From a virus: a DNA stretch of 33,303 nt. The DNA lies in IMG/VR virus record IMGVR_UViG_3300036652_001351, positions 1 to 33,303 of that record, one strand, 5' to 3'. A program made the position numbers and the translations under genes. This document shows, one piece after another, positions 5,823 through 32,879 of this stretch (position 1 is the stretch's first letter; each line of letters begins with the position of its first letter). Under the pieces are notes generated by a model. That model was given only the letters and a program-made list of their open reading frames with translations, made no database searches and was not told the DNA's origin.

Positions 5823-5824
5823 TT

Positions 5825-9846: not shown

Positions 9847-9852
9847 TTGTTT

Positions 9853-9874: not shown

Positions 9875-9921
9875 GCATAATGGTCGATCCCCTTCTTTAC
9901 CAGCAAACATATAGATTTCAT

Positions 9922-10482: not shown

Positions 10483-10500
10483 GCAGGTGAGCCTTAATAT

Positions 10501-11430: not shown

Positions 11431-11442
11431 GTCCTTATTCAA

Positions 11443-11500
11443 GGTTGTATTTGGCTCCTTTCTTCTCTTTAGGAGGAGCCAAAGCAAAGAGAATGCAACC
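11443..11500 (+). other. hairpin after major capsid gene
   Basis: TTGGCTCC (11451-11458) pairs perfectly with GGAGCCAA (11475-11482), and GGTTG (11443-11447) with CAACC (11496-11500) adds an outer stem. It lies in the gap after the capsid stop. No U-tract follows on either strand, so it may be a weak terminator or a stabilising 3' structure for the abundant capsid mRNA. Confidence 0.5.
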
Positions 11501-11514
11501 CTAATATCATCCTC

Positions 11515-11829: not shown

Positions 11830-11881
11830 AACTGTGAACGACATCAGATTATTCTTCACTTAATCATCAGATACTGTCCTC

Positions 11882-14314
11882 ATGCGTATAGCTCTTGCCC
11901 TCATCGTTAAAGGATCGCCAGAAGAGGCCGAACTCCTCTCGCGCTGTCTCGCTAGCGTTGCTCCTTCCAAGGCAGTAGACGGTCTATTTATCACGCGCAC
12001 TCATAAGACAGGTGAAGAACCTGAAGAAGCAGTCGCTCAGGTGGTTGACGTGTTCAGAGATTCGTTCAAAGAAGTGCAACTCTCTGACTTCGAGTGGGTC
12101 AATGACTTCGCAGCAGCCCGAAACTTCAACTTCTCGCAGGTTCCGAAGGACTATGACTACATCCTCTGGTGCGATGCGGATGATATATGGCGCGGACTGG
12201 AAAAGCTCAAGAAGATGGTCAAGAAGAATCCGCACGTTGATGCATTCTCGTTTGAATACCTATACGACTGGGATGACTTCAATAACCCCACGGTAGTACA
12301 TCGAAAGACCCAGCTACTCCGTAATGACGGCTGTTTCACATGGCGCGGGGCCCTGCATGAGGATCTTGACCCTAACCGTGCGATAGACATGTACTTGGTA
12401 AAGGGCATAGACCGTATGCACCTCACCAACGCAGAACGCGTGGCTGAGAACTTCAAGCGCAACCTTGAAATCGCCAAGAAAGAGGTTGATGACAACCCTG
12501 ATGAGCCGCTTACCTATTGGAATCTTGCTAACTCCTGTTTCGGCATATCAGATTACGAAGGGGCGATGGCTGCATACAACCAATTCCTCGAACTCACGGA
12601 GTCAGAGGATCAGAAATACCTTGCGTATACCCGTATCGCTGACGTGTATAAGAGTCAAGGTAACCGCAGCGAGTGCATCAAGCACTATCAGCTCGCTATT
12701 GGACTTAGGCCGAACCTTCCTGATGCGTACCTACAACTCGCATACGCCTTTTTCACATTCAATGCAATGGATAAATCAGAGGAATACTGCCTGCAGGGAC
12801 TCAAACGCCGCCCAGAACCAGACCGAATGATCGTCTACAACCCTCGAGATTACGATTACAACCCGTTGATGCTCCTTGCCCGTATCTATTACGAGAAGAA
12901 TCGTCCCGATTTGATGGTTCCGGTGCTTGAAGGGTGTCTGAAAATCTATCCTGAAGACAAGAAGCTCCAAAATCTTGTCAAAGAGGGCAAAACCCTTCGT
13001 GAAGAGCTTGCTGCAGCCCTTACAGAAGTCCAACGGCTAGAAAAGATAGAAGATAAGGACGTTCTGAAGAAAGAACTGGACAATTTACCTGCAGAAATAC
13101 AGTCTCACCCTGCTGTGTGCGTACTTCGCAATAAGAACTTCGTGAAAACAGAGTCTTCGGGCAAGGATCTGGTCATTTACTGCGGGATGACCGAGCATCA
13201 GTGGAATCCTGAACTGTTTAAGACAAAAGGATTCGGCGGATCGGAGGAAGCAGTGGTGAATCTTGCTCGTGAATGGGCCTCTTTGGGCTGGAATGTGACG
13301 GTATACAACAACTGTGGTCATAAGCCGATGCGCGAGATGTATCAGAAGAAAGACATTCGTGTAACCACAGATAAGGGTATTGCCGTAGAGCCGCCATATT
13401 ACGAAGTCCAGTACAAGCCCTTCTGGATGTGGAATTACCGAGACAAGCAGGATGTAACGATTCTCTGGCGATGGGTGAAGCCTGTGGATGCGAACATAAA
13501 CACCACGAAGCTCTTTATTGACGTACACGATGTTATCCCAGAGGGTGAATTCACTGAAAAGCGTCTACAGATAATAGATAAGATATTCGTAAAGACGAAT
13601 TTCCATCGTTCCCTGTTCCCGAACGTACCGGATAACAAGATTGCAGTCATACCAAACGGCTTCAACATCTACCCCGACGATACGATAGAGAAAGACCCGC
13701 GCCTGGTCATAAACACGTCTTCCCCAGACCGTTCCATGGACGTGTTGCCTAAGCTCTGGAAGCGAGTCAAAGAACAAGTCCCTGAAGCCACGATGCAATG
13801 GGCCTATGGGTTCGACGTGTACAAGGCAGCATTCGCCAACGATCCGAAGAAGATTGAATGGATGGAGAAGTGCATCGCTGAGATGAATGATGCAGGGATA
13901 GAACAGTTAGGAAAACTCCCACAGTCTGAGATAGGCAGGCTCTATCAAAAGGCATCCTTCCTCGCCTACCCCACAGAATTTGCCGAAATAGACTGTATAT
14001 CTGTTAAGAAAGCGCAGGCCGCAAAGTGCTTGCCTATCGCTACGGACTTCGGTGCACTCGATGAATCTATAAAGTACGGCGTAAAGGTGCACTCGAACAA
14101 GAACAAAGATAACTGGAACAAGCCCTACCAGTTTCACTTCGGTCTTGAAGACGAGAAGGCACAGGATGCATGGGTTGATGTGATGGTTCGCGCCCTTCGT
14201 GGAGAAACAGACATCTACGGCGTGTATCGAGACTGGGAAGAACTGCCTGAATGGACGGCACAGTTCGACTGGTCAAAGATCGCAGCTCGCTGGAATGAGA
14301 TTCTATGCGCATAG
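11882..14314 (+). CDS. fusion glycosyltransferase: GT2 - TPR - GT4
   Basis: An 810-residue protein with three parts. Residues 1-190 are a GT2 (GT-A) domain that starts MRIALALIVKGSPEEAELLS and has the metal-binding D98-A-D100-D101 in ILWCDADDIW. Residues about 195-345 are TPR-like helical repeats (EPLTYWNLANSCFGISDYEG; KYLAYTRIADVYKSQGNRSE; PDAYLQLAYAFF). Residues about 425-810 are a GT-B, GT4-like domain (GFGGSEEAVVNLAREWASLG; IPNGFNIYP; EIDCISVKKAQAAKCLPIAT). Such an enzyme would add two sugars in sequence to a protein or glycan. It heads a cassette of overlapping sugar genes; targets could be virion proteins or host surface polymers (inference). Confidence 0.8.
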   Translation: MRIALALIVKGSPEEAELLSRCLASVAPSKAVDGLFITRTHKTGEEPEEAVAQVVDVFRDSFKEVQLSDFEWVNDFAAARNFNFSQVPKDYDYILWCDADDIWRGLEKLKKMVKKNPHVDAFSFEYLYDWDDFNNPTVVHRKTQLLRNDGCFTWRGALHEDLDPNRAIDMYLVKGIDRMHLTNAERVAENFKRNLEIAKKEVDDNPDEPLTYWNLANSCFGISDYEGAMAAYNQFLELTESEDQKYLAYTRIADVYKSQGNRSECIKHYQLAIGLRPNLPDAYLQLAYAFFTFNAMDKSEEYCLQGLKRRPEPDRMIVYNPRDYDYNPLMLLARIYYEKNRPDLMVPVLEGCLKIYPEDKKLQNLVKEGKTLREELAAALTEVQRLEKIEDKDVLKKELDNLPAEIQSHPAVCVLRNKNFVKTESSGKDLVIYCGMTEHQWNPELFKTKGFGGSEEAVVNLAREWASLGWNVTVYNNCGHKPMREMYQKKDIRVTTDKGIAVEPPYYEVQYKPFWMWNYRDKQDVTILWRWVKPVDANINTTKLFIDVHDVIPEGEFTEKRLQIIDKIFVKTNFHRSLFPNVPDNKIAVIPNGFNIYPDDTIEKDPRLVINTSSPDRSMDVLPKLWKRVKEQVPEATMQWAYGFDVYKAAFANDPKKIEWMEKCIAEMNDAGIEQLGKLPQSEIGRLYQKASFLAYPTEFAEIDCISVKKAQAAKCLPIATDFGALDESIKYGVKVHSNKNKDNWNKPYQFHFGLEDEKAQDAWVDVMVRALRGETDIYGVYRDWEELPEWTAQFDWSKIAARWNEILCA

Positions 14315-15213
14315 CCTTTATCTGGAGCGGGTTCGACGATAGGTATAAGTACCAGTGGCGTGATGGCCTTTGGGCAGCGCTACAGCTCATAGAACAGGAA
14401 CACGATGTTAAGTACTTCGATTTCCCGCTTGATGGGATTCATGACTTCAATCCTGACGTAGTCTTGTACTGGGAAGCACCATGCAGTCTTCGAGGCCCTG
14501 AAGCAGCTAACTATCAATCAGTCATAGACCTTCCATACAAGAAAGCACTTCTCTTCGCTGGCGGCCCTGTAGACAGGCAGATATGCTATGGATTCGACCT
14601 CTATTTCGTAGAATCCCGAATAAACGAAGAAGAATTCAATGCTCTAGGTCTCCCGTGGAAGCGAGCCTTTGGCGTGAACACGCAGATATTCAAGCCGATG
14701 AATCTCGAAAAGAAACGGGATGGGATCATACAGGCAACCTTCGCAGGCTGGAAACGACACGAACTGTTCGCAGACGCTCTCGGCTCCAACGGAATGGCTG
14801 TAGGACGCGTGCAGGAAAGCGATAGGAACGGATACAACCGATGCTTAGAACGTGGAGTTGAAGTACTGGACGAACAGACACCCGAAAGAGTAGCTGAACT
14901 CATCAACGAATCTCATTGTGTCGTGAACACGGCTGAATACTGGGGCGGTGGACAACGCTGCACCCTTGAAGCCATGGCCTGCGGTGTTCCTGTAATCGTA
15001 ATGAACGATAGCCCTAAGAACTGCGAATATGTAGAGGAAAGCAAAGCTGGTCTCATCTGTGAACCGAATCCCGAAGCGATACGCGAAGCTATCGAAGAAG
15101 CAAAGACTCTGAATCGTCCTATGAGTGCATTAGGCCATGAATACATACAGGAACATTGGACAGAACGGCACTACGCAGACTCGTTACTCGAAGGAATAGC
15201 ACAAATCCTATGA
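14305..15213 (+). CDS. glycosyltransferase, GT4/CgeB-like
   Basis: A 302-residue GT-B glycosyltransferase. The N-terminal half is a Rossmann-like domain (MRIAFIWSGFDDRYKYQWRD). The C-terminal half has the donor-binding signature YWGGGQRCTLEAMACGVPVI, with the E-x7-type arrangement of GT4 enzymes, and ends with an amphipathic region (EAIREAIEEAKTL). It resembles CgeB/spore-maturation-type GTs. It overlaps the fusion enzyme by ten bases and the methyltransferase by an ATGA, so the cassette is translated as a unit. Confidence 0.8.
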   Translation: MRIAFIWSGFDDRYKYQWRDGLWAALQLIEQEHDVKYFDFPLDGIHDFNPDVVLYWEAPCSLRGPEAANYQSVIDLPYKKALLFAGGPVDRQICYGFDLYFVESRINEEEFNALGLPWKRAFGVNTQIFKPMNLEKKRDGIIQATFAGWKRHELFADALGSNGMAVGRVQESDRNGYNRCLERGVEVLDEQTPERVAELINESHCVVNTAEYWGGGQRCTLEAMACGVPVIVMNDSPKNCEYVEESKAGLICEPNPEAIREAIEEAKTLNRPMSALGHEYIQEHWTERHYADSLLEGIAQIL

Positions 15214-15656
15214 AACTAATCCTCTGTGCGGGCGATAGGCACGTTCCCGGCTTCACCACCCATGACATTCATGGAAATCAGGACATTCTCTGCGATTTAT
15301 TCGACATAGGGAATCATGTTGAACCAGAAAGCTGCGAAGAGATACATTTCACCCACGCTCTAGAGCACTTCCCTACTAAAATGGTTCCGCAGGTGCTCGA
15401 TCTCATCTACGGACTCTTGAAACCAGAAGGAAGACTCTACATTGAAGTCCCTAACTTCGCGTGGCACGCACAGCTCATTAACGAAGGGAAAGACCGTGAA
15501 GCAGTGTATTACGCTTTCGGTGGTCAGCTAGACGAGTGGGACTTCCACAAGACCGCCTTCACTCCGAAAATCATCCGCGAGGAACTGGAAGATGCTGGGT
15601 TTCGGGATATTGATGTACAGCCCGCCTCATCACTTAACGTATGGGCCCGAAAGTAA
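15210..15656 (+). CDS. SAM-dependent methyltransferase, small class I
   Basis: A 148-residue class I methyltransferase of the type found in sugar clusters. It has LILCAGDRHVPGF in place of motif I, a DLFDIGNH segment, the typical HALEHFP motif and LLKPEGRLYIEVPN (motifs 'HvLEH' and 'LkPgG.l.i.vPn'). It may methylate a sugar added by the adjacent glycosyltransferases (inference). The start at 15210 overlaps the preceding stop as ATGA; an extension to 15156 lies inside the upstream gene and is rejected. Its last 16 bases overlap the next glycosyltransferase. Confidence 0.78.
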   Translation: MKLILCAGDRHVPGFTTHDIHGNQDILCDLFDIGNHVEPESCEEIHFTHALEHFPTKMVPQVLDLIYGLLKPEGRLYIEVPNFAWHAQLINEGKDREAVYYAFGGQLDEWDFHKTAFTPKIIREELEDAGFRDIDVQPASSLNVWARK

Positions 15657-16270
15657 GCGTCATTACGCCATCAATACGCCCCGAATACCTGCACATAACG
15701 CAGGAATGCCTTGAAAACCAGACTAATCAGGACTTTGAATGGCTGGTCGAGATAGGATTACGCAACCGAGGCTTCACCCTGCCTACGGACTGGAACAAGC
15801 TAATAAGACGAGCGCAAGGAGACATTATTTTCATAATACAGGACTGCATCTCCTTCCCTACTGACGCTGTGGAGCAGATAGCGAAACTCGATTATGACCA
15901 CAAAGCCTACACCTTCCCTGTTTCTAAGGACAGCGTGTGGGACTGGCGCAAGAGCGAACCGCGTAAGCTCACAGGCAATGAATGGGAGATAGACATGGGC
16001 GCTGCCCCGCGCTCCTTGTTCTACGATGTGGGCGGGTTCGATGAGACATTCTGCGAAGGATGGAGCTGGGAGAACGTGGAGATCGGCTGGCGTGCCGTCG
16101 CTGCAGGCTATTCATTCTACAGTTCACACGCCACGGAAGGAATAGGGATAGACCACGACGCGCTTCGCCCGCACCCATTCAGGGAATCTTTACCTAAGAA
16201 TGCTCCGAAAGCGAACGAGACCATGCGAAAAGCAGAACGCGGAGACTATAAAAAGCCCTATTTGTTTTGA
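15641..16270 (+). CDS. glycosyltransferase family 2-like
   Basis: A 209-residue GT-A protein starting MGPKVSVITPSIRPEYLHIT, the classic GT2 opening. Residues 50-70 (WNKLIRRAQGDIIFIIQDCI) match the region where GT2 enzymes carry the DxD motif, here reading IQDC, so the metal site is degenerate or shifted. A later FDETFCEGWSWENVEIGWR segment matches the acceptor-side ED motif of GT2/galactosyltransferase-like enzymes. It ends the sugar cassette; its stop codon (TGA) lies inside the next motif copy (TTGTTTTGATAC). Confidence 0.72.
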   Translation: MGPKVSVITPSIRPEYLHITQECLENQTNQDFEWLVEIGLRNRGFTLPTDWNKLIRRAQGDIIFIIQDCISFPTDAVEQIAKLDYDHKAYTFPVSKDSVWDWRKSEPRKLTGNEWEIDMGAAPRSLFYDVGGFDETFCEGWSWENVEIGWRAVAAGYSFYSSHATEGIGIDHDALRPHPFRESLPKNAPKANETMRKAERGDYKKPYLF

Positions 16271-16273
16271 TAC
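16262..16273 (+). promoter_or_regulatory. TTGTTTTGAYA-family motif, copy 6 (before connector)
   Basis: Reads TTTGTTTTGATAC and contains the stop codon of the preceding glycosyltransferase. The core starts at 16267, 58 nt before the TTG start at 16325 and 82 nt before the ATG at 16349. Unlike the other copies, the gene that follows has a plausible SD (AGAGGA). Confidence 0.5.
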
Positions 16274-16324
16274 ATCGGTTTTTCGTACTGTCTAGAGTGA
16301 GCCACAGGTCGCAGAGGATACGAC

Positions 16325-17074
16325 TTGTGTGCTCATCAAAGCAACTCTATGACACTCGCGGACATCGCAAGCACGGTCCGGTTCCTCACGAACTCGGACA
16401 GCACGTCGTATACGGACGCGCAGCTTTTGATAAACCTGAACACTTGGTATCAGAAGATCGTAACGATGATTTTCGAGTCTCAGGATGAGAGTGATTTTGA
16501 TGATGCACGCAATACGGATTACCCGATAGAGACTACGCCGATGGTGGCTAGTCAGCGGGATTATTCCATACCTGTCTCAAATGCTGTTCTCAAGATAAAG
16601 CGGGTGGATCTCACCTATGACGGCACGAACTACTACCGTGCTTATCCGATAGACGACGGCTCAGTGAGCACGGACATGGGCGCGAATCTCGCCAATACCG
16701 ACCAGGACTTTGTGAAGCAGAACCCACGCTATGACGTCAAGTACAACTCGGTATTTATCTACCCTGCTCCGACGGCAGCCGATGTGTCTGCAGGAGGCTC
16801 AATCCGTATCGAATGGGAACGTAATGTCACTCCATTTACGTCTGCAGAGCTTACGGCAGGAACGGTGGTCCCAGGATTCGACGCGCCATTTCACCCGATG
16901 CTCGTACAGGGCGCGGCGTATGACTACGCATTCGCTCGTCAGCTTCCCCAGCTCCAACAGCTACAGGCAAGCCTTGTGGACTGGGAGGCACGCCTTCGCC
17001 AACACTACAGCCACAAGGTCATAGACCGCACGCTTCAGATGAAATCTGGCTATGACGATAGCTACGGACGCTAA
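16325..17074 (+). CDS. head-tail connector/adaptor protein
   Basis: A 249-residue protein, or 241 from the ATG at 16349 (MTLADIASTVRFLTNSDSTS). The pattern of an N-terminal helical domain (TDAQLLINLNTWYQKIVTMI), a beta-rich insertion (RDYSIPVSNAVLKIKRVDLT) and C-terminal helices ending near a basic tail is that of podovirus/siphovirus head-to-tail adaptors, which sit under the portal. The TTG at 16325 has AGAGGA six bases upstream; the ATG at 16349 has none, so the start is open. It begins the tail module. Confidence 0.65.
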   Translation: MCAHQSNSMTLADIASTVRFLTNSDSTSYTDAQLLINLNTWYQKIVTMIFESQDESDFDDARNTDYPIETTPMVASQRDYSIPVSNAVLKIKRVDLTYDGTNYYRAYPIDDGSVSTDMGANLANTDQDFVKQNPRYDVKYNSVFIYPAPTAADVSAGGSIRIEWERNVTPFTSAELTAGTVVPGFDAPFHPMLVQGAAYDYAFARQLPQLQQLQASLVDWEARLRQHYSHKVIDRTLQMKSGYDDSYGR

Positions 17075-17076
17075 TT

Positions 17077-17781
17077 ATGGCTACGTTCACTGCACAGAAC
17101 AAGCATAGTAGCACATGGACAGGATCAACAAAGTCTATCCCCGTGTCATCAATCACGACTGCAGCAACTCTTCCGGGAACTGGCACGAGCGTCGGATTTG
17201 CAATCGTTAACCCATGGGTTAATCCATCGAACATAACACTTAACGATGGAAGTTTCGCCGAGTATTTCGATTTCAGTAGCTCTTCGGCACAGGACTCGCA
17301 GGTGAAGTTAACGGTAGATGCTGGCACTTCGGGGGTTGGGAACAATAAGGCCGTTGCAACACTGTACCCATCCACCTTTACATCTCAGATATACGGTGGA
17401 TCAGCAGACGTATGGGGAGCTTCGCTCACACCAGCGATAGTAAACAGCTCATCTTTTGGAGTCTACCTTGAAATAGACAACAATCTTGTTGCCTCTAGTT
17501 TCGGGTTCACGATCCCGACCTCAGCCACCATAACGGGGATAACGGTAGAGATAAACCGCCGGTATGTGCTGGCTACCCAGAAAGCCGAAGTGGATTACAT
17601 GAAAATGACTGTTGACTACACGGTACCTGTCCCAACGGCATGGTCTCCACAATCACTTCCAACCGCGAATACCCTCGCTGCTGCAGGACTGCACCGAGGA
17701 CTAGGTCCATTCAATTATGCGGGTGGGGAAATATTATCAACTACCCTCGGCTCTACTTGGACTTCAACGAATAAATCTTAA
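17077..17781 (+). CDS. beta-rich virion protein
   Basis: A 234-residue Ser/Thr/Gly-rich protein without charged helices. The segment FGFTIPTSATITGITVEINR is a recurring pattern in phage virion and adhesin beta-sandwich domains ('iPtgAtItGi.v.i'), and FGVYLEIDNN precedes it. It starts two bases after the connector stop with no SD. Likely a tail or decoration protein; precise role unknown. Confidence 0.6.
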   Translation: MATFTAQNKHSSTWTGSTKSIPVSSITTAATLPGTGTSVGFAIVNPWVNPSNITLNDGSFAEYFDFSSSSAQDSQVKLTVDAGTSGVGNNKAVATLYPSTFTSQIYGGSADVWGASLTPAIVNSSSFGVYLEIDNNLVASSFGFTIPTSATITGITVEINRRYVLATQKAEVDYMKMTVDYTVPVPTAWSPQSLPTANTLAAAGLHRGLGPFNYAGGEILSTTLGSTWTSTNKS

Positions 17782-17783
17782 CC

Positions 17784-18497
17784 ATGGCAAATTCACAAAT
17801 CTCAACGACAGAAGGAAGTGGCAAGAATGTCGCAACCTACTCAATATCTGAGACAACGACAAAAGAGGTGCAACGCGTATCTCTTAACGATTCGAGCGGT
17901 GTCGAGCTTACCGCCAATATCGGTTCCCTCACCGAGACCGCACCGACTACGGACACGGCTTCTTCCGGCTTGAATGGCCGACTTCAGCGTATCGCGCAGC
18001 GTGTTACATCCATGATCGCACTTCTCCCCACCGCTCTCGGGCAAGGGACCATGGCTCAGTCTCTGCGTGTCGTGCTTCCTTCAGATCAGGCAGCGATTCC
18101 GGTCACTGTATCTTCTGCGAATGTAACACCTATTCCTGCGGCCTCAGGCGGCCCCACCTTGTACCGCATCATGTCAGCAGCTAATACGAACGCCCAGCTG
18201 CTCAACAGTGGTGCTCGACAGGTCTATGGCTGGTATTTCGTCAATAACAGCTCGACCGCTAAGTTCGTGAAGTTCTATAACAAAGCAAGTTCTCCTACTG
18301 TCGGCTCTGATACTCCCTATTTCACACTCACCATTCCAAGCCCAGGCTCGGCGAACGGTGCCGGTACAAACATCGAGTTCTCGCTCGGAATTCCTTTCTC
18401 TCTTGGTGTGGCACTCGCTATCACGGGTGCTATCGCAGACTCCGATACTACGGCAGTCGGCCTGAACGATATTTCGGGATTCATCCTCTATAAGTAG
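17784..18497 (+). CDS. virion structural protein
   Basis: A 237-residue protein. The segment SGLNGRLQRIAQRVTSMIAL is a pattern I associate with phage tail or appendage proteins, and it is followed by a beta-rich C-terminal domain (GWYFVNNSSTAKFVKFYNKA). Low charge and high Ser/Thr fit an exposed virion protein. It begins two bases after the previous stop, as is usual in this block. Confidence 0.6.
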   Translation: MANSQISTTEGSGKNVATYSISETTTKEVQRVSLNDSSGVELTANIGSLTETAPTTDTASSGLNGRLQRIAQRVTSMIALLPTALGQGTMAQSLRVVLPSDQAAIPVTVSSANVTPIPAASGGPTLYRIMSAANTNAQLLNSGARQVYGWYFVNNSSTAKFVKFYNKASSPTVGSDTPYFTLTIPSPGSANGAGTNIEFSLGIPFSLGVALAITGAIADSDTTAVGLNDISGFILYK

Positions 18498-18499
18498 CT

Positions 18500-19165
18500 A
18501 TGGCTGTACCAGTAATACAGTCTAGTTCTCACGCGAATAGCGGCACTACTACAGTGACCGTTACTGCCCCTACGGGAATCGTAGACGGGGAGCTTCTGTA
18601 TGCTGGCGCACTAACTAACGCAGGAAGCACAGTAACGCCACCTGCTGGTTGGACTCGATTAACAGACGTAAATGTAAACGGAAGCCTGTCTGGTGTCTTC
18701 TGGAAACTCGCCGCAAGCGAGTCGGGAAATTACACCTTCACTGGCCAAAGTGGCTGCTCCATATCTGCATACATACTCCGTATCAGTGGAGTGGATGGAA
18801 GTAATCCTATAAATGCTTCAAATACCGGAACTGGTGGAGCAAGCACTGCCTATTCAATATCGGGAGTAACTACTACGGTTGCAAATACGCTCCTCGTTCA
18901 ATCCATATTCTGGTCAAACAGGGCACGAACAATCAGCTCAATAGCCGTTGCGAACGGGAATCCATCGTGGACGAATACACAGGCGATTGACAACGGTTTT
19001 GGTGCAGGACAGGAATCGGATGGGTCGTATACGACCGCACAAGCTACTGGTAGCGCAACGGCTACGTTCTCTGGTTCAACCTTCTGGGGCGGCGTCATCG
19101 CTGCGATAACTCCAACACAGCCGTCCAAGAATACGGGAGGAATGCTTATGGGAATGGTCAACTAG
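18500..19165 (+). CDS. beta-sandwich virion protein
   Basis: A 221-residue Ser/Thr/Gly-rich protein with the pattern VTAPTGIVDGELLYAGALTN...PPAGWT, common in phage decoration or tail proteins with an immunoglobulin-like fold, followed by a second half with many short strands and a Gly/Met tail (GGMLMGMVN). Starts two bases after the previous stop. Likely on the virion surface; target unknown. Confidence 0.6.
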   Translation: MAVPVIQSSSHANSGTTTVTVTAPTGIVDGELLYAGALTNAGSTVTPPAGWTRLTDVNVNGSLSGVFWKLAASESGNYTFTGQSGCSISAYILRISGVDGSNPINASNTGTGGASTAYSISGVTTTVANTLLVQSIFWSNRARTISSIAVANGNPSWTNTQAIDNGFGAGQESDGSYTTAQATGSATATFSGSTFWGGVIAAITPTQPSKNTGGMLMGMVN

Positions 19166-19168
19166 CAT

Positions 19169-20605
19169 ATGGTCGGAAAAAATGCAATCCAAATAACAGG
19201 TTCTCAATTCGCACAAGGTCTTTGTACCTCCGACTATCTTGGTGATGGTGGAATGGGCACTGAGACTCAGAACATAAACCCTATCATCACGCAGGGAATT
19301 ATTTATGGTACGGCAGCAACGTCTGTTAGCGGTTTGAGCGGCGTTGCTGTGGCTTCGTGTGAAGACTATCAGGCGACTTCAACCGTTAATCGTTTCGTAA
19401 TTGATACAGGGTCAGGACTTTCTTATATAGACAATAGCAACATAGTCCATTCTACAACGCCACTTCCGGTAGCACCGACAGCTGCCGTGAGTGACATGAT
19501 TCCATTCGATGATGTGGTCGGCTTACATGCACCTGGACTCTATATATCTACAGCAAACGACATAACTCGTGTGACAGGAACACTTGTGGGCCCCCCGAGC
19601 ACTGGTGCAGGTACTTTTTGGACAGTTACAAAAAGCAAAAATGCTCTGAGTAGTGATGTTCCCCACCCACTACTCGTGTACCAGAACCAATTATGGATTG
19701 GAAATGGAAGCCATTTACCAAATATGGATACTTCTGGGAATGCAAATAATGACGCTTCCTGGACACTTGATATAAACGAGATAATAACCGCTCTTGGAAT
19801 TGATCCACAAACGGGTCTGATGATGGTCTCCGTAACTACCACGACACTTGGGGCCAGCGGCGGCTCGGCAACTACACCAAGAAGGAACTACATATATCTC
19901 TATGATGGGTATTCAGCAAAGCCGCGACGTAAAATCCCAGTTCAAGGGAGTATCTACTCGTTTACTCCGTACGCGGGACAGGTGATGGTTGGGATAGACA
20001 ACAGCATCGGCATATGGAATGGAAACGGCGTTACATTCTTGCGCCGTCTGTCTTCCGTAAATAATTTACCTTACAAACACCGTTGTGCCGTGATTAATAA
20101 CATATTCATGGTTGCTGATGGTACCCAGATACTAGCCTACGGAGATATCATCAATGGGAAAAAAGCGTGGTTTCCACTTTATAAAAATACCGAGAACTCG
20201 AATAGTCTAAATATAATATTCCAACAGTCAATCTCACTGGTCGGACTTAGTTACGATTCGTCTACGGTAAAGTTTATAAACCTATTCGATACCTCCCTCG
20301 GCGCAGGGACAGGCATCTTCTACACGAATAACATCAACTTTGAACGACCTGTGGTAATCAATCGAGTTAGGGTCGTGACCACAGGAATAACCACTACAGC
20401 AGGTATCGGGGGTGTTTCTATCGTTGATGAGAATGAAAACACGTACTCACCTACCCAAAACAAATTCGTAGTCTCTTCCGGCACAAAGTATGTGTTCGAT
20501 TTCGACATGAATTACAAGCTGCAGACCCTGCAGCCGAAGATTACCCTCGATACTCAGTCCTTCGGGGTGGTGAAGATCGTCATTTATTACACGGTAGCTG
20601 AGTAG
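19169..20605 (+). CDS. large tail/virion protein, propeller-like
   Basis: A 478-residue protein with few charged helices and regularly spaced strand-turn units (PLLVYQNQLWIGNGSHLPNM; YIYLYDGYSAKPRRKIPVQG; QVMVGIDNSIGIWNGNGVTF; NNIFMVADGTQILAYGDIIN) that read like beta-propeller blades, then a C-terminal beta domain. Such proteins form tail nozzle or stabilisation parts in podoviruses, an inferred role here. The ATG follows the preceding stop after three bases with no SD. Confidence 0.55.
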   Translation: MVGKNAIQITGSQFAQGLCTSDYLGDGGMGTETQNINPIITQGIIYGTAATSVSGLSGVAVASCEDYQATSTVNRFVIDTGSGLSYIDNSNIVHSTTPLPVAPTAAVSDMIPFDDVVGLHAPGLYISTANDITRVTGTLVGPPSTGAGTFWTVTKSKNALSSDVPHPLLVYQNQLWIGNGSHLPNMDTSGNANNDASWTLDINEIITALGIDPQTGLMMVSVTTTTLGASGGSATTPRRNYIYLYDGYSAKPRRKIPVQGSIYSFTPYAGQVMVGIDNSIGIWNGNGVTFLRRLSSVNNLPYKHRCAVINNIFMVADGTQILAYGDIINGKKAWFPLYKNTENSNSLNIIFQQSISLVGLSYDSSTVKFINLFDTSLGAGTGIFYTNNINFERPVVINRVRVVTTGITTTAGIGGVSIVDENENTYSPTQNKFVVSSGTKYVFDFDMNYKLQTLQPKITLDTQSFGVVKIVIYYTVAE

Positions 20606-25145: not shown

Positions 25146-25793
25146 TTAATTAGTTACAGATATTGCGGTCTTGGTAATATATGTGTCACCATCAACACTT
25201 ACGAGTTTTACATAATATCCTCCATTCGGAATAGGACTTGTGGGTATTAGGCGATAAAACTCACCGCCACATACTTTTCCATTGGGAAGTTGTGTGCCAG
25301 TTTCGTCTCTGTACCAACATGAATCATTGATAGTTCTGCTCTGTGGGCTAGCAGTAAATGAAATATTCATTGTCTGTCCTTGCGTTGGATTGCCTATCGA
25401 ATCTTGTACATCTTGTATAAGTTGTATCGAACCTACGTCCAGCTTCTTGTTTCCATTGTAATAGACGTCATTGAAGCCAGCTTGTTCATAACTTATCTCA
25501 TACACTACAAACGGAGTTGGGTTAGTAGTATTATCTACTGCACCACCCGTAGGCGCAGCAACTGCCGTATTCTGCTTAATGGTTGCCACATCATTTGCGG
25601 TGTTATCGGCCTGTGTCTGTAAAGCAGTGAGCTGCGCCTGAAGCATCTGCACTTCCTGAAGAAGCACTTGTATGAGCTGCATCTTGAGGGCATCAAGATC
25701 CGAAAGAGTCGCTGGCTGGCTCACAACCTGCGCATAGGAGAACGATGGAGCGAAAAGAGCAACGGCAACGAGTGCGATAAGTGTCTTTTTCAT
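25146..25793 (-). CDS. secreted coiled-coil protein (moron candidate)
   Basis: A 215-residue protein starting at the ATG at 25793 (MKKTLIALVAVALFAPSFSY) with a clear Sec signal peptide ending near SYA-Q (residue 21). Residues about 28-65 form a strong heptad coiled coil (LSDLDALKMQLIQVLLQEVQ). The C-terminal 120 residues are a beta-rich domain with two cysteines (SCWYRDETG, VCGGEFY) that may form a disulfide. Parcubacteria encode many secreted proteins of this type. It sits alone on the minus strand between late plus-strand genes, so it is probably expressed separately, perhaps from the prophage to change the host surface (inference). A strong hairpin lies just upstream. Confidence 0.65.
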   Translation of the reverse strand: MKKTLIALVAVALFAPSFSYAQVVSQPATLSDLDALKMQLIQVLLQEVQMLQAQLTALQTQADNTANDVATIKQNTAVAAPTGGAVDNTTNPTPFVVYEISYEQAGFNDVYYNGNKKLDVGSIQLIQDVQDSIGNPTQGQTMNISFTASPQSRTINDSCWYRDETGTQLPNGKVCGGEFYRLIPTSPIPNGGYYVKLVSVDGDTYITKTAISVTN

Positions 25794-25965: not shown

Positions 25966-26808
25966 ATGGAGCGCCCCAGCCTTGATTCTTTCATCCTTTC
26001 CCCTATCCAACGGAAAGACAGGAAGAAGCTGAATACAGAATCCCTATTTGAGAACCTTCGTGGCGAGGACGGCAAAGACGGTATCTCAGTGGTTAATGCA
26101 GCAATAAACGAATCAGGTGAACTCGTCCTCACGCTCAGTAATGAGAAAGACATAAATGTAGGAAAGGTGCGAGGTGAGGATGGCGAAGATGGGGACGACG
26201 GAGATACACCAGAGCTTGACATAGTGGACATTGTGAATCGTGTCCTTGCTCTTATTCCAGAACCGGAACCTGTAGACACTGACAGTCTCAAGGAGACTAT
26301 TGTCTCCTCAATTCCCCAGAAGACTGCACAGGATCTTCTCAAAGAGATACAGGAACAGGGACTCAAATTCCCTCTCTCTGCCATTGAAGATCTTGAAACT
26401 CTCATTGAGAACGCAAAGAAAGAGACCAAGGAACATACGGATAAACGGGTAAATTCGATACGTATGACGGGCGGAAATACGAATATTCGTCTGAAGAATA
26501 GTGGTAGTCCTGTCGGCCAGATAGAGACTTTCAATTTCATAGGAGCAACCATTACCCCTGTGGGAGATGGGCGCGAGGTGAATGTTTCCTTCCCTGGTGG
26601 CGGGGGTAGTTTTGCGGTGCTTACCCCAGTCTCTGGGAGCGTGGATGGATCAAATACTGTATTCACCTTCGCCTCTGCTCCAAGCGTGGTGATTCTCGAC
26701 AACGGCAACCCCATGAACAAGGTCTCCTCGGACGGAACCGTCAACTGGACAGGAACAACCACCATTACGTTATCTCAGGCCCCTAATTTTAATATATTTG
26801 CTTTCTAA
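25966..26808 (+). CDS. tail fibre protein with collagen-like segments
   Basis: A 280-residue trimeric-fibre-type protein. Collagen-like GxD runs occur near residues 33-39 (GEDGKDG) and 69-81 (GEDGEDGDDGDTP). A helical, coiled-coil-like region spans about 90-155 (LKETIVSSIPQKTAQDLLKE). A glycine run leads to a C-terminal beta domain (residues about 215-280: LTPVSGSVDGSNTVFTFASA...), a module frequent in phage tail fibres. It would form a stalk or attachment part of the adsorption apparatus. The next gene starts one base after its stop. Confidence 0.7.
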   Translation: MERPSLDSFILSPIQRKDRKKLNTESLFENLRGEDGKDGISVVNAAINESGELVLTLSNEKDINVGKVRGEDGEDGDDGDTPELDIVDIVNRVLALIPEPEPVDTDSLKETIVSSIPQKTAQDLLKEIQEQGLKFPLSAIEDLETLIENAKKETKEHTDKRVNSIRMTGGNTNIRLKNSGSPVGQIETFNFIGATITPVGDGREVNVSFPGGGGSFAVLTPVSGSVDGSNTVFTFASAPSVVILDNGNPMNKVSSDGTVNWTGTTTITLSQAPNFNIFAF

Positions 26809-26809
26809 T

Positions 26810-29800
26810 ATGAAAAGGTTTCTCATCATTCTGCTGCTCCTCCTTCCTGCGACCTCCTTTGCAGCCATCTCCACGCCGTGGAATGCAACCTCCACTGACA
26901 AGGGTTCAATCAGCCCGAATCTAGTCAATGGTAATTCTCCGTGGTTGTCCGTACTGAGCACCGGCACGAGCACCTTTGCGAATGGTATAAATATTTCAAA
27001 CGGCTGTTTTGCGATCAATGGAACCTGCGTATCAGGTGGTGGCGGGGGTTCTATTACCAGCGTGACCGCATCCTACCCCATCCTGTCTTCGGGAGGGACA
27101 GCGCCTAACATATCTACTGCTTTCGGCACGACGACCAATAACACATACTCCGGCACCAACACTTTCACTAATGGCGTCACGACGAATACGCTCTCAATTG
27201 GTTCACTTTCAGGGTTCCTCAAGGCAACCGCAGGGGCCATATCTACGGCTCTTATAAATCTCACATCAGACGTGACGGGCACTTTGCCTGTTGCTAATGG
27301 AGGTACCGGAAGCACGACGCTCACAGGAATCCTGAAGGGAAATGGTACGGGGAGCGTTCAGACTGCTATCTCTGGAACCGATTACCAGGCTCCTGGGAGC
27401 TACATCACGGCACTTACGGGCGACGTGACGGCCTCAGGGCCAGGCTCAGCGGCGGCGACGCTCGTGACCGTCAACGGCAACGTCGGCTCCTTCACGAACG
27501 CGAACATCACTGTGAACGCCAAGGGACTCATAACAGCAGCATCGAACGGTACGGGAGGATCGGGCGGTTCAATCGGAACATCCACTGCACTCGTAAACGG
27601 CCAGGTAGACTTCTCCACGAGCGCAAACACCATCGGCAACGACTCGACGTTCCTCTTCGATTCCACGCTCAAGAAGCTCACCGTCAACAATGCCTCGACC
27701 ACGAACCTCTCAATCGGTTCGCTCTCGGGCATCCTCAAGCAGGTTGGCGGCGTCGTATCCGCCGCGACCGCAGGCACCGACTACGAGAACCCGCTGACGT
27801 TCACGTACCCGCTTCAGCGCGCGGTGAACGCGATCTCCCTCGCCTTCGGCACCACGACTTCGAACACCTGGGCTGGCACGCAGACCTTCACCAACCCTAT
27901 CGTGGTTGGATCTCTGTCCGGGACGCTGAACGCCAATTCCGGCACGGTCTACGCGACCGCCACATCGACGCCATCGCTCGCAAGCGAATTCACCTACGGC
28001 GGCACGCTCGGCCAGTTCATCGGGGGCAGCTCCGGTGCGCTTTCTCTCACGACCAACGGCACGGCCCTCACCAAGCTCGCCCAGGTCGCTGCGAACACGC
28101 TCCTCGGCAATTCCACGGGAGCCACGGGCAACGTCACGGCCATCGCCACGTCCTCGCTTGGCCTTCAGGTCGCGAGCTTCGCTTCCCCGAATATCTCCCA
28201 GTGGACGAACAATTCCGGCTACCTCACAGGCAACCAGACCATCACGCTTTCGGGCGACGTTTCCGGGTCCGGCTCGACCGCCATAACCACCACCATCGGC
28301 GCGGCCAAGGTCATCGGCTCGATGATCGCGAGCGCCGCCGTAGACCTCACCTCGAAGGTCACGGGCATCCTCCCCGTAGCGAATGGCGGTACAGGTTCAT
28401 CCACCCTTTCGGGCATCCTGAAGGGTGCAGGCACGTCAGCCGTGATCACGGCAGTCGCCGGTACCGACTACCAGGCACCCATCACTCTCTCGACCACGGG
28501 CACCAGCGGAGCGGCGACCTTCGTGGGAAATACCCTCAACATCCCACAGTACACATCCGGTGGAACACCAGGCGGCGCGTCCTCAACCATCCAGTACAAC
28601 GGCAATGGCTCGTTCGCTGGCAACACAGGCTTCACCTATGACGGCACGAGCGTCGGCATCGGCACAACGACGCCGCAGAAGCTCCTACACGTATATGGCA
28701 ATGTAGCCGGAGGTATTGCACGCTTCGAGCGCCGGACGGCTGGCGTCACGGGTACTACTGACAACCCAACGGTATTCGGGGTTGCAGATGTGGCGTTCTC
28801 CGACACCGGCACCGGACATGACCTCCTCGGTCCCTCGCAGACCTTCAGCTACATCGACAGTGCCGGCACAGTGAACCAGCTCGGGTGGATAAGTGCCGCG
28901 CGCACTGGGGCAGATAATGTCGGCAACATCAGCATCGTCGGTCTAGGCGGTGCTGCCAGCTCCGCCACGCTCACGGTGGCGGGCAACAGCGTCGTCGCGA
29001 TTGGATCAAGTACCCCATCCAACGCAATCGGCTCGTGCGGCAATGCCGGCTTTTGCGTCGTCAATCAGCCCGCCGCAGGCCCCACCGCTGCCGAAGCTCA
29101 GATCAAGCTCATCTCTGGCACGAGTACGGACGAGGTTCGCACCTGGCTCAATGCACGCAGCAACACCACGCCGCATCGCGCAGAATTCGGCACGGAGACG
29201 AACCATGACCTCACGATTTGGACAAACAGCGTCATACGGGCCGACCTTACGGCGACGGGCGGCTTTGCCTTCGGCAGCTATGCCGGCGTCAACGATCCCG
29301 GACTGGGCAATGCGATTTTCCAAGGAAACGTCGGTATCGGCACCACGAGCCCGTACGCTAAACTCTCAGTAGCAGGACAGATCGTCGGCGCTTCATTCGT
29401 CGGCACCACGACTGCGACCTCCACGCTTGGAGGCGGCCTGAATGTCACGTCGGGCTGTCTTGCCGTGAATGGCACCTGCATCACTGGAGGGGCAGGCTCG
29501 ACGCCGGCTGGCTCCAATACGCAGCTACAGTTTAACAACTCCGGCGCGTTCGGCGCGAGTTCGAACCTGACCTACGATGGCACAACCCTCCAGGTGACGG
29601 GCTCCGGCCTCAACAACACCATGAAGGTGATCGGCACGAACACGACCAGCGCCGGCCTGTACTTCCAGGACACGGCGGCGAGCGCCCAGACCGTCTTCTA
29701 CGTCGATAATGACCGCGGCTCGTTCGCCTCGTATGGTGGATTGCTCAATGGCGGCTCGACAAATGCGATCGGCAACATCTTCGGCCTATCCCGCGCCGAT

Positions 29801-31360
29801 CATGTCTTCCTCTTCGCCGATGGCGCAAACAGCACGGGCCTTTCGGTCGGCACCCTGACAGCGCAGCCACTTACGTTCGGCACGAACAACACGGAAGTCG
29901 CTCGCCTTACGAGCGGTGGCTTCTTCGGTATCGGTACGACTTCCCCCTATAAGAAACTTTCTATAGGTGGTGATGTGGTCGTCGGTGCTGCGACCGCAGG
30001 CGGCACACTTGGCGACCTATACCTGCCGAAGCTCGGTACGGCCGCAGGTACGTTCTTAGCCGCAGATGCTACTGGAAAAGTTATTGCTACGACTACTCCT
30101 ACCGGTAGCGGGAGCGGTGTAACCGGCACAACAGGTCAAGTCGCCTATCTCTCCGGCACCAATACGGCAGTCGGTACCTCAACCATATTCATCAACACGA
30201 ACGGTCGTGTGGGTATCGGTACCACGACCCCCTACGCGGCATTCTCGGTAAACCCTACGGCTGCTTCGGTAGGAACGGGTGCAGCATTCGTGGTCGGTTC
30301 CTCTAGTGCTACCAGCTTCTACGTCGGCAACGACGGACGCGTGGGCTTCGGTACAACCATCACCACCTCACCATTCCAGTTCCTCGGTCCGTCGAACACG
30401 TCCCCTAACTTCTCGGTCGTGGACTTCAAGTCAACTACGGGTGATGTTAATGCGACGTTCACTAGCGCCAACGGAAACGTCGCCTTCATGGGTCAGCGCA
30501 ACTCCGGTTCCGCATACTTCACGGGGCCAAACGGCTTCTCCATGGACGTGTACGGCGCAGCTACGCATGTGGTGTATGAGACGAATAACGGTACGTTCTG
30601 TGCCGGAGGCATCTTCAACGACGGCGGCGGTACCTGTCTTACGGCTGCCCTCTACATCGCTCCAACGACCCTGAAAGTAGGCCTCTCTAGCACCACGCCG
30701 ACAGGTCAGTTCACGGTTGGTGCGAACAGCTCGACCACGGCAATGGCATGGATAGGCGTTGCCGGAAGCAGCACGCCGTCCTTCATGATTGCCAGCGCGA
30801 ACAATAGCGGAAACGTCGGTATCGGCACCACCTCGCCGTGGCGTACGCTCTCATCGCAGGGAACAGTCGCGCTCAATGGCCTTAGCGCCTTCGCAACGGG
30901 AGATTCTGCCGTCTGTCAGCGTGCGGGCGGTGAGCTTACGGTAGATAGCGGCGTGTCGTCTTGTATCGTGTCGAGTAAGTTCGTGAAAGACCCGCAAGGG
31001 GACGACACCTACCAGCAGGCATATGCACGCATCATGCAGCTTCAGCCTGTGCTGTTCAAATACAAAGATAGCGGAAATCAGGACATCGGCCTTTATGCAG
31101 AGGATGTCTCGAAGGTAGACCACCGATACGCGCAATACGCATCATCGCCACGCGACATGAGCGGGCATCATTATAACGTCGGCGACCCTGTGGCTATCAA
31201 CTGGACGGCGATTCAGGCAGATATGCTGGTCGTGCTTCAGCATCAGAGTCTTCCCTATAAGGCGGCACGTTCCGTGGAGGAGAACTGGCAGGACGGTCTC
31301 ATAGGCATATTGCTGCTGTATATGCTCTATAACGAATACGATAAGCGCCGTCGCAAATAG
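26810..31360 (+). CDS. giant fibre with signal peptide and S74-type chaperone domain
   Basis: A 1516-residue protein starting at the ATG at 26810 (MKRFLIILLLLLPATSFAAI), with an unmistakable Sec signal peptide, unusual for a phage fibre. The body is Gly/Ser/Thr-rich with repeated fibre modules: LPVANGGTGSTTLTGILKG twice, 'SNTQLQFNNSGAFGASSNLTYDGT'-like units, and at least five GIGTT(S/T)P units typical of Parcubacteria proteins. Near the end (from about residue 1388) is a peptidase S74/intramolecular chaperone domain with candidate catalytic S1388 and K1393 (SSKFVKD), LQPVLFKYKDSGNQDIGLYA and AEDV. After it come a short hydrophobic stretch (LIGILLLYMLY) and a basic end (KRRRK). Likely a self-cleaving host-recognition fibre; a secreted surface protein of host origin is the alternative. 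Confidence 0.75.
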   Translation: MKRFLIILLLLLPATSFAAISTPWNATSTDKGSISPNLVNGNSPWLSVLSTGTSTFANGINISNGCFAINGTCVSGGGGGSITSVTASYPILSSGGTAPNISTAFGTTTNNTYSGTNTFTNGVTTNTLSIGSLSGFLKATAGAISTALINLTSDVTGTLPVANGGTGSTTLTGILKGNGTGSVQTAISGTDYQAPGSYITALTGDVTASGPGSAAATLVTVNGNVGSFTNANITVNAKGLITAASNGTGGSGGSIGTSTALVNGQVDFSTSANTIGNDSTFLFDSTLKKLTVNNASTTNLSIGSLSGILKQVGGVVSAATAGTDYENPLTFTYPLQRAVNAISLAFGTTTSNTWAGTQTFTNPIVVGSLSGTLNANSGTVYATATSTPSLASEFTYGGTLGQFIGGSSGALSLTTNGTALTKLAQVAANTLLGNSTGATGNVTAIATSSLGLQVASFASPNISQWTNNSGYLTGNQTITLSGDVSGSGSTAITTTIGAAKVIGSMIASAAVDLTSKVTGILPVANGGTGSSTLSGILKGAGTSAVITAVAGTDYQAPITLSTTGTSGAATFVGNTLNIPQYTSGGTPGGASSTIQYNGNGSFAGNTGFTYDGTSVGIGTTTPQKLLHVYGNVAGGIARFERRTAGVTGTTDNPTVFGVADVAFSDTGTGHDLLGPSQTFSYIDSAGTVNQLGWISAARTGADNVGNISIVGLGGAASSATLTVAGNSVVAIGSSTPSNAIGSCGNAGFCVVNQPAAGPTAAEAQIKLISGTSTDEVRTWLNARSNTTPHRAEFGTETNHDLTIWTNSVIRADLTATGGFAFGSYAGVNDPGLGNAIFQGNVGIGTTSPYAKLSVAGQIVGASFVGTTTATSTLGGGLNVTSGCLAVNGTCITGGAGSTPAGSNTQLQFNNSGAFGASSNLTYDGTTLQVTGSGLNNTMKVIGTNTTSAGLYFQDTAASAQTVFYVDNDRGSFASYGGLLNGGSTNAIGNIFGLSRADHVFLFADGANSTGLSVGTLTAQPLTFGTNNTEVARLTSGGFFGIGTTSPYKKLSIGGDVVVGAATAGGTLGDLYLPKLGTAAGTFLAADATGKVIATTTPTGSGSGVTGTTGQVAYLSGTNTAVGTSTIFINTNGRVGIGTTTPYAAFSVNPTAASVGTGAAFVVGSSSATSFYVGNDGRVGFGTTITTSPFQFLGPSNTSPNFSVVDFKSTTGDVNATFTSANGNVAFMGQRNSGSAYFTGPNGFSMDVYGAATHVVYETNNGTFCAGGIFNDGGGTCLTAALYIAPTTLKVGLSSTTPTGQFTVGANSSTTAMAWIGVAGSSTPSFMIASANNSGNVGIGTTSPWRTLSSQGTVALNGLSAFATGDSAVCQRAGGELTVDSGVSSCIVSSKFVKDPQGDDTYQQAYARIMQLQPVLFKYKDSGNQDIGLYAEDVSKVDHRYAQYASSPRDMSGHHYNVGDPVAINWTAIQADMLVVLQHQSLPYKAARSVEENWQDGLIGILLLYMLYNEYDKRRRK

Positions 31361-31362: not shown

Positions 31363-31635
31363 ATGGATACTACTCAGAACGATCACGACCTGCTTATCGA
31401 ACTCCGCACCGAAATGCGGGGTATGCGCGCGGATGTCATTGAAATTAAGACCAATACTGTCTCACGCATAGCGAATCTTGAGGCAGACCATATCTCAAAG
31501 ACAGACTACGACACACTCACGAAAGATGTCGGGAAGTTGAAACTCTCTTTTGCAGGCATAGCAGCTGTCGGTACTGTAATTATTGTCGTACTCATACCGA
31601 TAGTTTCTGCTTATATAAGCGCCGGAAAGTTATAA
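31363..31635 (+). CDS. coiled-coil/TM protein, XhlA-like (lysis)
   Basis: A 90-residue protein with a charged N-terminal helix (LLIELRTEMRGMRADVIEIK) in heptads, a linker, and one C-terminal transmembrane segment (residues about 66-86, FAGIAAVGTVIIVVLIPIVS). This topology matches hemolysin XhlA-type proteins, which act with holins in host lysis. It sits directly after the fibre and before a peptidase and a holin-like gene. Start two bases after the previous stop, no SD. Confidence 0.6.
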   Translation: MDTTQNDHDLLIELRTEMRGMRADVIEIKTNTVSRIANLEADHISKTDYDTLTKDVGKLKLSFAGIAAVGTVIIVVLIPIVSAYISAGKL

Positions 31636-31651
31636 ATAATTTCATGATTCT

Positions 31652-32569
31652 ATGGAAGAGCACGCTTTTGAAAAATTAGGAGGCAAGCCACGCGCCGTTG
31701 ATACCCGTGACCATGTTTTTGAAGGGTCAGCCGTCCCTTACCCAGCAACGTTCATGCAGCAATCCGCATGGGACACGTTCGTACACTATCAAGGACATCG
31801 TCCTGCCTGTGGTGCTCATGCTGCTGTCCATGCGAAGCAAATCCTCGATGCTAATGACGGAAAGACAGTCAAGAAAACTCCCCGGTTCACGTGGGCAGAC
31901 ATAAAGAAGAATGGTGCAGACAAAAACCCCTCAAATGGTTCAGACATGTACGACATCCTCAGTTCCCTGAAGAACACCGGAGCTGATGATTTTGAGCCGC
32001 TTGAGAATGACGTCACTTATGATGATGTCGCTTACGCAGACGCTCGGTACATCACGCAAGCGATGCTCGATAATGCGAAACTTGGCTCGATTGATAACTA
32101 CTCGTTCACGAACGGCCCGTATACCTTCGAGCAAATAAAATCCCTCATCTACCAGAACAAAGTGGTAATCGCCCTCATGAGTGTGGGTAATACCTTCTGG
32201 ACAGCCCCTAACGGACAGACTTCATGGAAGGAATCAGACATCTGCCCTATCCGCCCACCCGCACAGGTAATAGACGGCCATTTCGTCGTATTCCATTCCT
32301 ACGACGAGAATTATATATACTTTGTTAACTCATTCGGGCCAACCTGGGGACGACAGGGGCATGGATACATCGGGCCACACTACCCACCATACATCAGTGA
32401 ACTGGGCTTCCCGAAGAATGCCTCTATCGCGCCCGTAGTCGCACAGGTCGTGCAAGACACCTCTAAGGCCCTAGAACAGGTGCAAACGCTCCCAGTACAG
32501 GCACAACAGCCCTTTCTTGAACGTATAAAAGACATACTTCTGGCCCTTTTGCCCTTTCTGAAGGGGTAG
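31652..32569 (+). CDS. papain-like (C1A) cysteine peptidase
   Basis: A 305-residue protein with the papain catalytic set: Q47 and C53 at the papain spacing of six (YQGHRPACGAHA), H210 (GHFVVFHSYD) and N226 in the motif YFVNSFGPTWGRQGHGYIG, close to papain's 'NSWGt.WGe.Gy'. No signal peptide or propeptide is seen. The C-terminal 45 residues form an amphipathic then hydrophobic tail (LERIKDILLALLPFLKG) that could contact membranes. It lies between two membrane-protein genes of a lysis-like cassette, so a role as endolysin or virion peptidase is inferred; processing of virion proteins is the alternative. Confidence 0.75.
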   Translation: MEEHAFEKLGGKPRAVDTRDHVFEGSAVPYPATFMQQSAWDTFVHYQGHRPACGAHAAVHAKQILDANDGKTVKKTPRFTWADIKKNGADKNPSNGSDMYDILSSLKNTGADDFEPLENDVTYDDVAYADARYITQAMLDNAKLGSIDNYSFTNGPYTFEQIKSLIYQNKVVIALMSVGNTFWTAPNGQTSWKESDICPIRPPAQVIDGHFVVFHSYDENYIYFVNSFGPTWGRQGHGYIGPHYPPYISELGFPKNASIAPVVAQVVQDTSKALEQVQTLPVQAQQPFLERIKDILLALLPFLKG

Positions 32570-32577
32570 TTTTGATA
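32567..32577 (+). promoter_or_regulatory. TTGTTTTGAYA-family motif, copy 9 (before holin-like gene)
   Basis: Reads GGGTAGTTTTGATAT and includes the stop codon (TAG) of the peptidase gene. The TTGATA core starts at 32572, 32 nt before the ATG at 32604. TACTTT (32593-32598) lies 15 bp after the core and could serve as a -10. Confidence 0.55.
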
Positions 32578-32603
32578 TTCGCCCGGAATCCATACTTTAC
32601 CCC

Positions 32604-32879
32604 ATGGAAACATTAAATTTCGGGAAATTAGCGTCATCGGTAGACCCCAGCAAGCTTAGTAGCACGGTCATAGCGACCGCAAAGACTCTTGCGGGCCTCC
32701 TAGTGTTCGCTGGGATCTTTACGGTAGACCAGTCAAATACGTTCCTCAGCCAGACGAATATTATCCTTCAAAGCGCAGTTGTCCTTGCCCCACTCGTATT
32801 CTCGATGTGGCACGCTTCTGAAATCGTTTTCGGACTGTTCCAGAAGGCAATCGTAGCAGTCGTCAAGACTCGTCAATAG
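32604..32879 (+). CDS. holin-like membrane protein
   Basis: A 91-residue protein with two hydrophobic segments (about residues 24-40, AKTLAGLLVFAGIFTV, and 52-78, NIILQSAVVLAPLVFSMWHA) and a basic C-terminus (KTRQ). Size, two-TM topology and location next to peptidase and lysozyme-like genes fit a phage holin, which would form membrane pores for lysis. No sequence motif proves this. It has its own motif copy at the standard 32-nt spacing, so it may be timed separately from the fibre genes. Confidence 0.55.
   Translation: METLNFGKLASSVDPSKLSSTVIATAKTLAGLLVFAGIFTVDQSNTFLSQTNIILQSAVVLAPLVFSMWHASEIVFGLFQKAIVAVVKTRQ

Follow-up and report, generated by a model that had tools for sequence, protein, structure and literature searches.

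A predicted Sec-exported S74 fibre encoded beside a tail-fibre-like gene in a probable Patescibacteria phage

Tailed phages are assumed to make their fibres in the cytoplasm and to attach them to the virion there. Why, then, does a long fibre gene in the virus record IMGVR_UViG_3300036652_001351 (positions 1 to 33,303, a 33.3-kb stretch here called the window) begin with an apparent Sec signal peptide and end, past a Peptidase_S74 (S74) domain, in a short hydrophobic and basic tail? An earlier note on this DNA had pointed to this combination, and proposed that either the gene was captured from a host surface protein or the fibre is exported before use. The gene (26810-31360 (+), as located in that note) is an intact open reading frame (ORF) of 1516 residues, whose ATG lies 1 nt past the stop of an upstream tail-fibre-like gene, cF; an alternative TTG start at 26798 would add four residues. 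S74 tail fibres and exported bacterial S74 proteins are both known kinds already, and none of the papers searched describes exported fibres coupled to tail-fibre genes. The best joint explanation, to which we give an even chance, is that the product is a late Sec-exported fibre of a two-fibre module, with its S74 domain held at the membrane and the fibre then cut free.

The fibre N-terminus and its recurrence

The N-terminus shows the features of Sec and signal peptidase I (SPase I) substrates by a simple rule of our own, which was used for all signal-peptide calls instead of SignalP: a basic n-region (KR), a hydrophobic h-region (FLIILLLLL) and a c-region rich in small residues (PATSFAA), with small residues at -3 and -1. 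The earlier note counted 19 residues in this peptide; the type-I cleavage site is judged best after A18 (the rule itself gave its top score to A14). Shuffling the first 60 residues gave an equally strong signal peptide by the rule in 0.03% of cases, and random N-termini with the composition of the fibre itself did so in 0.015%. When the entire protein is scanned with 12-residue windows (mean Kyte-Doolittle hydropathy of at least 1.9), only two hydrophobic stretches emerge, one at residues 4-19, which comes after KR and includes PATSFAA, and the other at residues 1495-1508, with EYDKRRRK after it. By these features the N-terminus is a genuine-looking Sec/SPase I export signal.

Fibres with a signal peptide or a hydrophobic N-terminus were found in about 24 contigs. 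The maximum 12-residue hydropathy near the start ranges from 2.2 to 3.3 in the 24 collected fibres versus 0.03 to 1.6 in 20 control fibres that carry S74 or the same repeats (10 from cultured phages and 10 from IMG/VR), with no overlap between the two sets (Mann-Whitney p 8e-9). The full signal-peptide rule is passed by 20 of the 24 (those of contigs L305, L306, L337 and G299 miss it) and, as a false positive, by one control (L345). The controls, cultured and metagenomic alike, thus bear out the premise of the earlier note that phage fibres normally lack such an N-terminus.

As the 24 fibres were gathered partly for their hydrophobic N-termini, two retrievals that made no use of the signal offer cleaner evidence. 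A query with the mature starts of three fibres, signal peptide excluded, recovered 10 loci from IMG/VR, of which three were the contigs of the query itself; immediately upstream of the match, nine of the 10 encode a segment resembling a signal peptide, and in the remaining one the match is internal. The tip domains of three other fibres recovered seven loci (two their own), and all six visible N-termini are either a signal peptide or a hydrophobic helix, which in L337 is devoid of K/R. Among the relatives the hydrophobic N-terminus is conserved in composition but not in sequence, as is seen in signal peptides. Rule-based signal peptides in genes of at least 150 residues are also more frequent in the terminase clade than outside it (9.2% versus 4.0%, p 0.013), a blunt measure with false positives that is not part of the main evidence. 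The signal peptide is therefore strong by the rule, exceeds what shuffling yields and recurs in independently retrieved relatives. Given that ordinary phage fibres lack one, export before use, the second proposal of the earlier note, appears to be the most economical reading.

The S74 domain and the C-terminal extension

The S74 domain of the window fibre is borderline by profile score: a full-length Pfam search gave 18 bits (E 0.0036), under the cut-off, and a profile search of genomes gave 23.6 bits, above its cut-off of 22. This doubt is resolved by a relative, contig L305 (IMGVR_UViG_3300050821_016329), whose 1584-residue fibre was found with a different query, aligns with the window fibre at the C-terminus and contains a textbook S74 domain scoring 57.5 bits (SSDVRLKENI, with the canonical SDVRLK dyad). 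In the window fibre, S1388 and K1393 retain the S-x4-K spacing of the Ser-Lys dyad, which is reported as S587/K592 in MYRF and S911/K916 in endoNF (PMC8326128). A Foldseek search with a low-confidence model of the S74 end placed the MyRF ICA domain in its top three matches and phage intramolecular chaperones among the next, none of them with a significant E-value; a PDB sequence search with the same region returned chance matches only.

The fibre of L305 begins with MDHLKQFAFYIVLLTALCLVGFFAAHRADSA followed by TVC, and ends in SVEENWQDALIAMLIVYVGYNEYDKRRRR. Its last 35 residues are near-identical to those of the window fibre, and the S74 cores are much less conserved. As the phage in L305 is otherwise different from that of the window and has a tape-measure-like gene, the layout of the fibre is shared across phage types. 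Further searches for this end added little. The tail peptide gave no convincing match in 50,697 phage records or in 287 patescibacterial genomes. A degenerate DNA pattern for WQD...YDKRR hit 20 stretches, of which only that in L305 was real, the other readable matches being mostly terminases. No close relative of the S74 end alone was obtained from IMG/VR with 8-residue patterns, because these missed L305.

Peptidase_S74 (PF13884) spikes and fibres such as endoNF resemble the window fibre in having a C-terminal self-cleaving trimerization domain, the S-x4-K dyad, a β-rich fibre and a gene in the tail module. The window fibre adds to this plan a signal peptide and a 30-residue hydrophobic-basic extension past the S74 coiled coil, neither of which occurs in the ordinary S74 fibres that were checked; in particular, all 11 ordinary phage S74 domains end just past the coiled coil. 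The approximate insertion energy of the hydrophobic segment in this extension, which is only 12-13 residues long, is near that of holin segments and weaker than that of the signal peptide. The earlier note likened this end to surface-anchored proteins. The S74 domain, S1388, the hydrophobic stretch and KRRRK are all present; however, the stretch is short and lies beyond the S74 cut site, and the comparison is questionable, since cleavage before S1388 would detach the tail from the fibre. Anchoring of the sortase or PEP-CTERM type was rejected on the same ground and because a reading of the sequence showed no LPXTG- or PEP-like motif before the hydrophobic segment.

A temporary tether of the kind seen in MYRF fits better. 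In this membrane-anchored eukaryotic transcription factor the S74/ICA domain is followed by a membrane segment, and cleavage linked to trimerization frees the N-terminal part (PMC8326128). The window fibre likewise has its S74/ICA domain ahead of a hydrophobic segment. In contrast, MYRF lacks a signal peptide, and the part that it frees is cytoplasmic and binds DNA, whereas the window fibre would free an extracellular fibre and has a shorter candidate membrane segment. A second point of comparison is pIII of filamentous phages, which binds the receptor as part of the virion and, before its assembly into the particle, is synthesized with a signal peptide and anchored in the membrane by its C-terminus. 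Its sequence is unrelated, and filamentous phages extrude through membranes whereas tailed phages assemble inside the cell.

Genomic setting and the link to Patescibacteria

The capsid-like gene of the window is followed by tail and internal-protein genes, cF, the fibre gene and a lysis-like cassette (31363-32879) (Table 1). The fibre gene thus lies beside tail and lysis genes, as expected of a tail fibre, and departs from the usual cytoplasmic fibre in carrying a predicted export signal. The cF protein comprises a helical start, a collagen-like stretch (GEDGKDG) and a small C-terminal β domain. Among 12 contigs examined, the distance from the end of a non-secreted cF-like gene to the start of the exported fibre is -4 to +23 nt in 11, and in the twelfth a gene is inserted between the two. 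This close spacing suggests that both proteins are made together and used together.

Table 1. Features of the window (positions in nucleotides).
Feature	Position	Strand	Basis
Terminase	6128-7342		
Portal	7623-9515		
Capsid-like gene	10501-11430		
Small exported coiled-coil protein, opposite strand, directly before cF	25149-25790	-	
cF, non-secreted tail-fibre-like partner	25966-26808	+	phrog_6049, E 6e-5; same pair in other contigs
Putatively exported fibre gene, 1516 residues	26810-31360	+	FIBRE family matches in G009, G307, G308, G309
Predicted Sec signal peptide, residues 1-18/19 (MKRFLIILLLLLPATSFA followed by A)	26810-26866	+	shuffles; 24 relatives versus 20 controls
β-repeat fibre body (GIGTTSP-, SGTDYQAP- and QLQFNN-type repeats); mature fibre predicted to end at residue 1387	26867-30970	+	
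S74/intramolecular chaperone domain, residues 1388 to ~1484	30971-31261	+	
Codons of S1388; K1393	30971-30973; 30986-30988	+	
Conserved C-terminal extension, SVEENWQD-(hydrophobic 12)-YNEYDKRRRK	31262-31357	+	
Hydrophobic part; basic tail of the extension	31295-31330; 31343-31357	+	
90-residue protein, C-terminal membrane segment, holin/XhlA-like position	31363-31635	+	
Papain-like peptidase, probable lysis-cassette enzyme	31652-32569	+	phrog_16701, E 9e-11
91-residue membrane protein, holin candidate	32604-32879	+	inferred

Several neighbours of the pair recur. An equivalent of the 90-residue membrane protein follows the fibre in L305 and cF in G303. A papain-like peptidase occupies the usual endolysin position behind the fibre in the window, in G009 (L117, 18726-19544) and in G312 (record position 26759-28018), and may be the lysis enzyme of these phages. 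The exported coiled-coil protein encoded on the opposite strand (MKKTLIALVAVALFAPSFSYA) has a counterpart at the same place before cF in the terminase relative G299 (L251, 15978-16622 (-), MKKTLATGFLLLIIPFSSHA); it was not found in 240 patescibacterial genomes, and looks like a separately transcribed accessory gene. Further exported proteins, some of them LamG-like, follow the fibre in several contigs; G011 has three exported genes in a row in or near this slot, and G012 and G299 have LamG-like ones. Close to the exported fibre, several contigs encode a second protein that in most cases bears a signal peptide too and whose C-terminus is a shared hydrophobic-aromatic motif (for example IESDLILFFE, EQIIFFE or SGAVIFD) that is possibly a sorting or assembly signal (G009, 16656-17927; G008 (L125), 8074-9141 (-); L337, 8638-9513; L338, 8316-9014; L339, 9982-10968; L340, 8326-10104). 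Finally, several relatives encode, in the region of their head genes, small proteins that have a membrane segment at the N-terminus (L336, 2537-3211; G301 (L253), 8757-9260; G312 (L271), 9149-9694; G310 (L267), record position 35460-35975).

Indirect evidence makes a patescibacterium the likely host. Of 12 genome loci that are relatives of the fibre, eight are from metagenome-assembled genomes (MAGs) named as Patescibacteria, and an ORF in a patescibacterial MAG shares 57% identity with a portion of the repeats. S74 proteins were detected in 69 of 287 Patescibacteria genomes, and among those with complete 5' ends 23 of 38 have a rule-based signal peptide. These chromosomal surface proteins share the signal peptide, β repeats and S74 domain of the window fibre, but differ from it in that no convincing hydrophobic-basic tail was seen after their S74 domains and in that they do not lie beside phage genes. 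The search for the same architecture that the earlier note had called for was thus successful in part: the general layout exists in Patescibacteria chromosomes, and the full layout with the tail in the phage contig L305. The frequency of this layout and the shared repeats make exchange between phage and host repertoires plausible. A direct or recent capture of the fibre gene from a host is not borne out, because it occupies a conserved phage slot beside a non-secreted fibre gene and the only full match to its S74 domain plus tail came from another phage contig.

Two other arrangements of S74 were noticed in Patescibacteria. Giant single ORFs in L133, L134, L152 and L166 combine an apparent MerR-type helix-turn-helix N-terminus, one membrane segment and a very long fibre with S74 near the C-terminus (partial relatives occur in L077 and L079, with MerR confirmed by Pfam in both); they resemble a bacterial mirror of MYRF, with a DNA-binding domain inside and a self-cleaving S74 fibre outside. 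In L141, L164 and L162 an N-terminus like the core-binding part of Xer-type recombinases is continuous with an S74 fibre.

A proposed route of the fibre and competing explanations

Taken together these observations are consistent with the following route. The two-fibre module would be expressed from the late operon of a tailed phage, probably of a patescibacterium. The product of cF would stay in the cytoplasm, while translation would pass on to the fibre gene, the signal peptide of which would route the chain through Sec and be removed by signal peptidase I after about A18. The β-repeat chain would then emerge outside the membrane, until the C-terminal hydrophobic helix and KRRRK stop transfer and hold the S74 domain at the membrane surface. 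There three chains might meet, with S74 driving trimerization and cutting before S1388 through the Ser-Lys dyad, so that a mature fibre of about 1370 residues would leave its anchor, as MYRF leaves the membrane of the endoplasmic reticulum. The free fibre would most likely be an adhesin that either joins or bridges virions at release through cF, or covers the surface of the infected cell. The evidence speaks neither for nor against a tethering or coating of released virions, the use that the earlier note gave as an example.

Several points weigh against this account. Four terminase relatives (G300, G302, G305 and G306) show no exported fibre in the part seen, and a fifth, G303, fills the fibre slot without one, although some of these five contigs are truncated. 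The exact tail is present in only two phage contigs, those of the window and L305. The S74 core of the window fibre is degenerate, with the D of the SD..LK motif absent and one residue deleted, and the single-chain structure model of the S74 end is poor (pLDDT, the predicted local distance difference test, 52). The hydrophobic segment of the tail, at about 12-13 residues, is short for a membrane span and could instead form the hydrophobic core of a trimer coiled coil, in which case export would be kept and the membrane tether lost. With regard to the host, no CRISPR-spacer-like match was found between window positions 1-20000 and a sample of patescibacterial genomes; two candidates (35 bp at 89% and 32 bp at 91% identity) were judged to be chance.

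A serious alternative, though one that we consider improbable, is that the fibre is an accessory ('moron' or conversion) protein that is exported but never enters the virion, and that serves at the surface of the infected or lysogenic cell as an adhesin or in superinfection exclusion. It would then amount to a phage-borne copy of the S74 surface fibres that the host itself makes, in keeping with how common this architecture is in Patescibacteria chromosomes and with the other exported genes in or near the same slot (25149-25790 (-) and those of G011, G012 and G299). A 2025 study similarly interpreted lectin genes of the concanavalin-like type in Patescibacteriota phages as helping adhesion to the host (PMC12911398). 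However, the translational coupling of the fibre gene to cF and its place after the tail genes and before the lysis genes indicate that it is expressed late and in connection with the virion, and conversion genes usually have their own promoter, as the coiled-coil gene before cF seems to.

It is unlikely, in our estimate, that the protein is an ordinary virion fibre in which the N-terminal hydrophobic helix serves as a docking segment, for example as a trimeric helix seated in a tail protein or touching the host membrane. The helices of G299 and L337, which lack basic residues, would suit such a role, as would the uncleaved N-terminal membrane segments of small proteins that relatives encode in the head module; but in most relatives there is a basic n-region, and a site with small residues precedes the repeats, their N-termini vary in the fashion of signal peptides, and cultured phage fibres have nothing comparable. 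That the gene encodes a host surface protein and became part of the phage contig through misassembly or recombination is very improbable despite the repeats shared with the MAG, given the phage cassette on both flanks, the conservation of the slot in other contigs and the tail match in a phage.

If the route through Sec and S74 release is correct, a more specific possibility, which we hold only tentatively, is that these phages have a partly extracellular adsorption apparatus: cF would be mounted on the virion in the cytoplasm, its partner would be exported by Sec and matured by S74, and the two would meet only at lysis. More generally, a recurrent family of Sec-exported fibres translated in coupling with an ordinary tail-fibre gene would imply that some tailed phages complete their adsorption apparatus extracellularly or else present fibres at the surface of the infected cell, and either outcome would be new for phages of Patescibacteria, a group mostly known from sequence. 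The annotation of such genes would also be affected, as they are readily taken for host adhesion genes or for ordinary tail fibres. The S74 domain with its hydrophobic tail would represent a phage counterpart of the release mechanism of MYRF.

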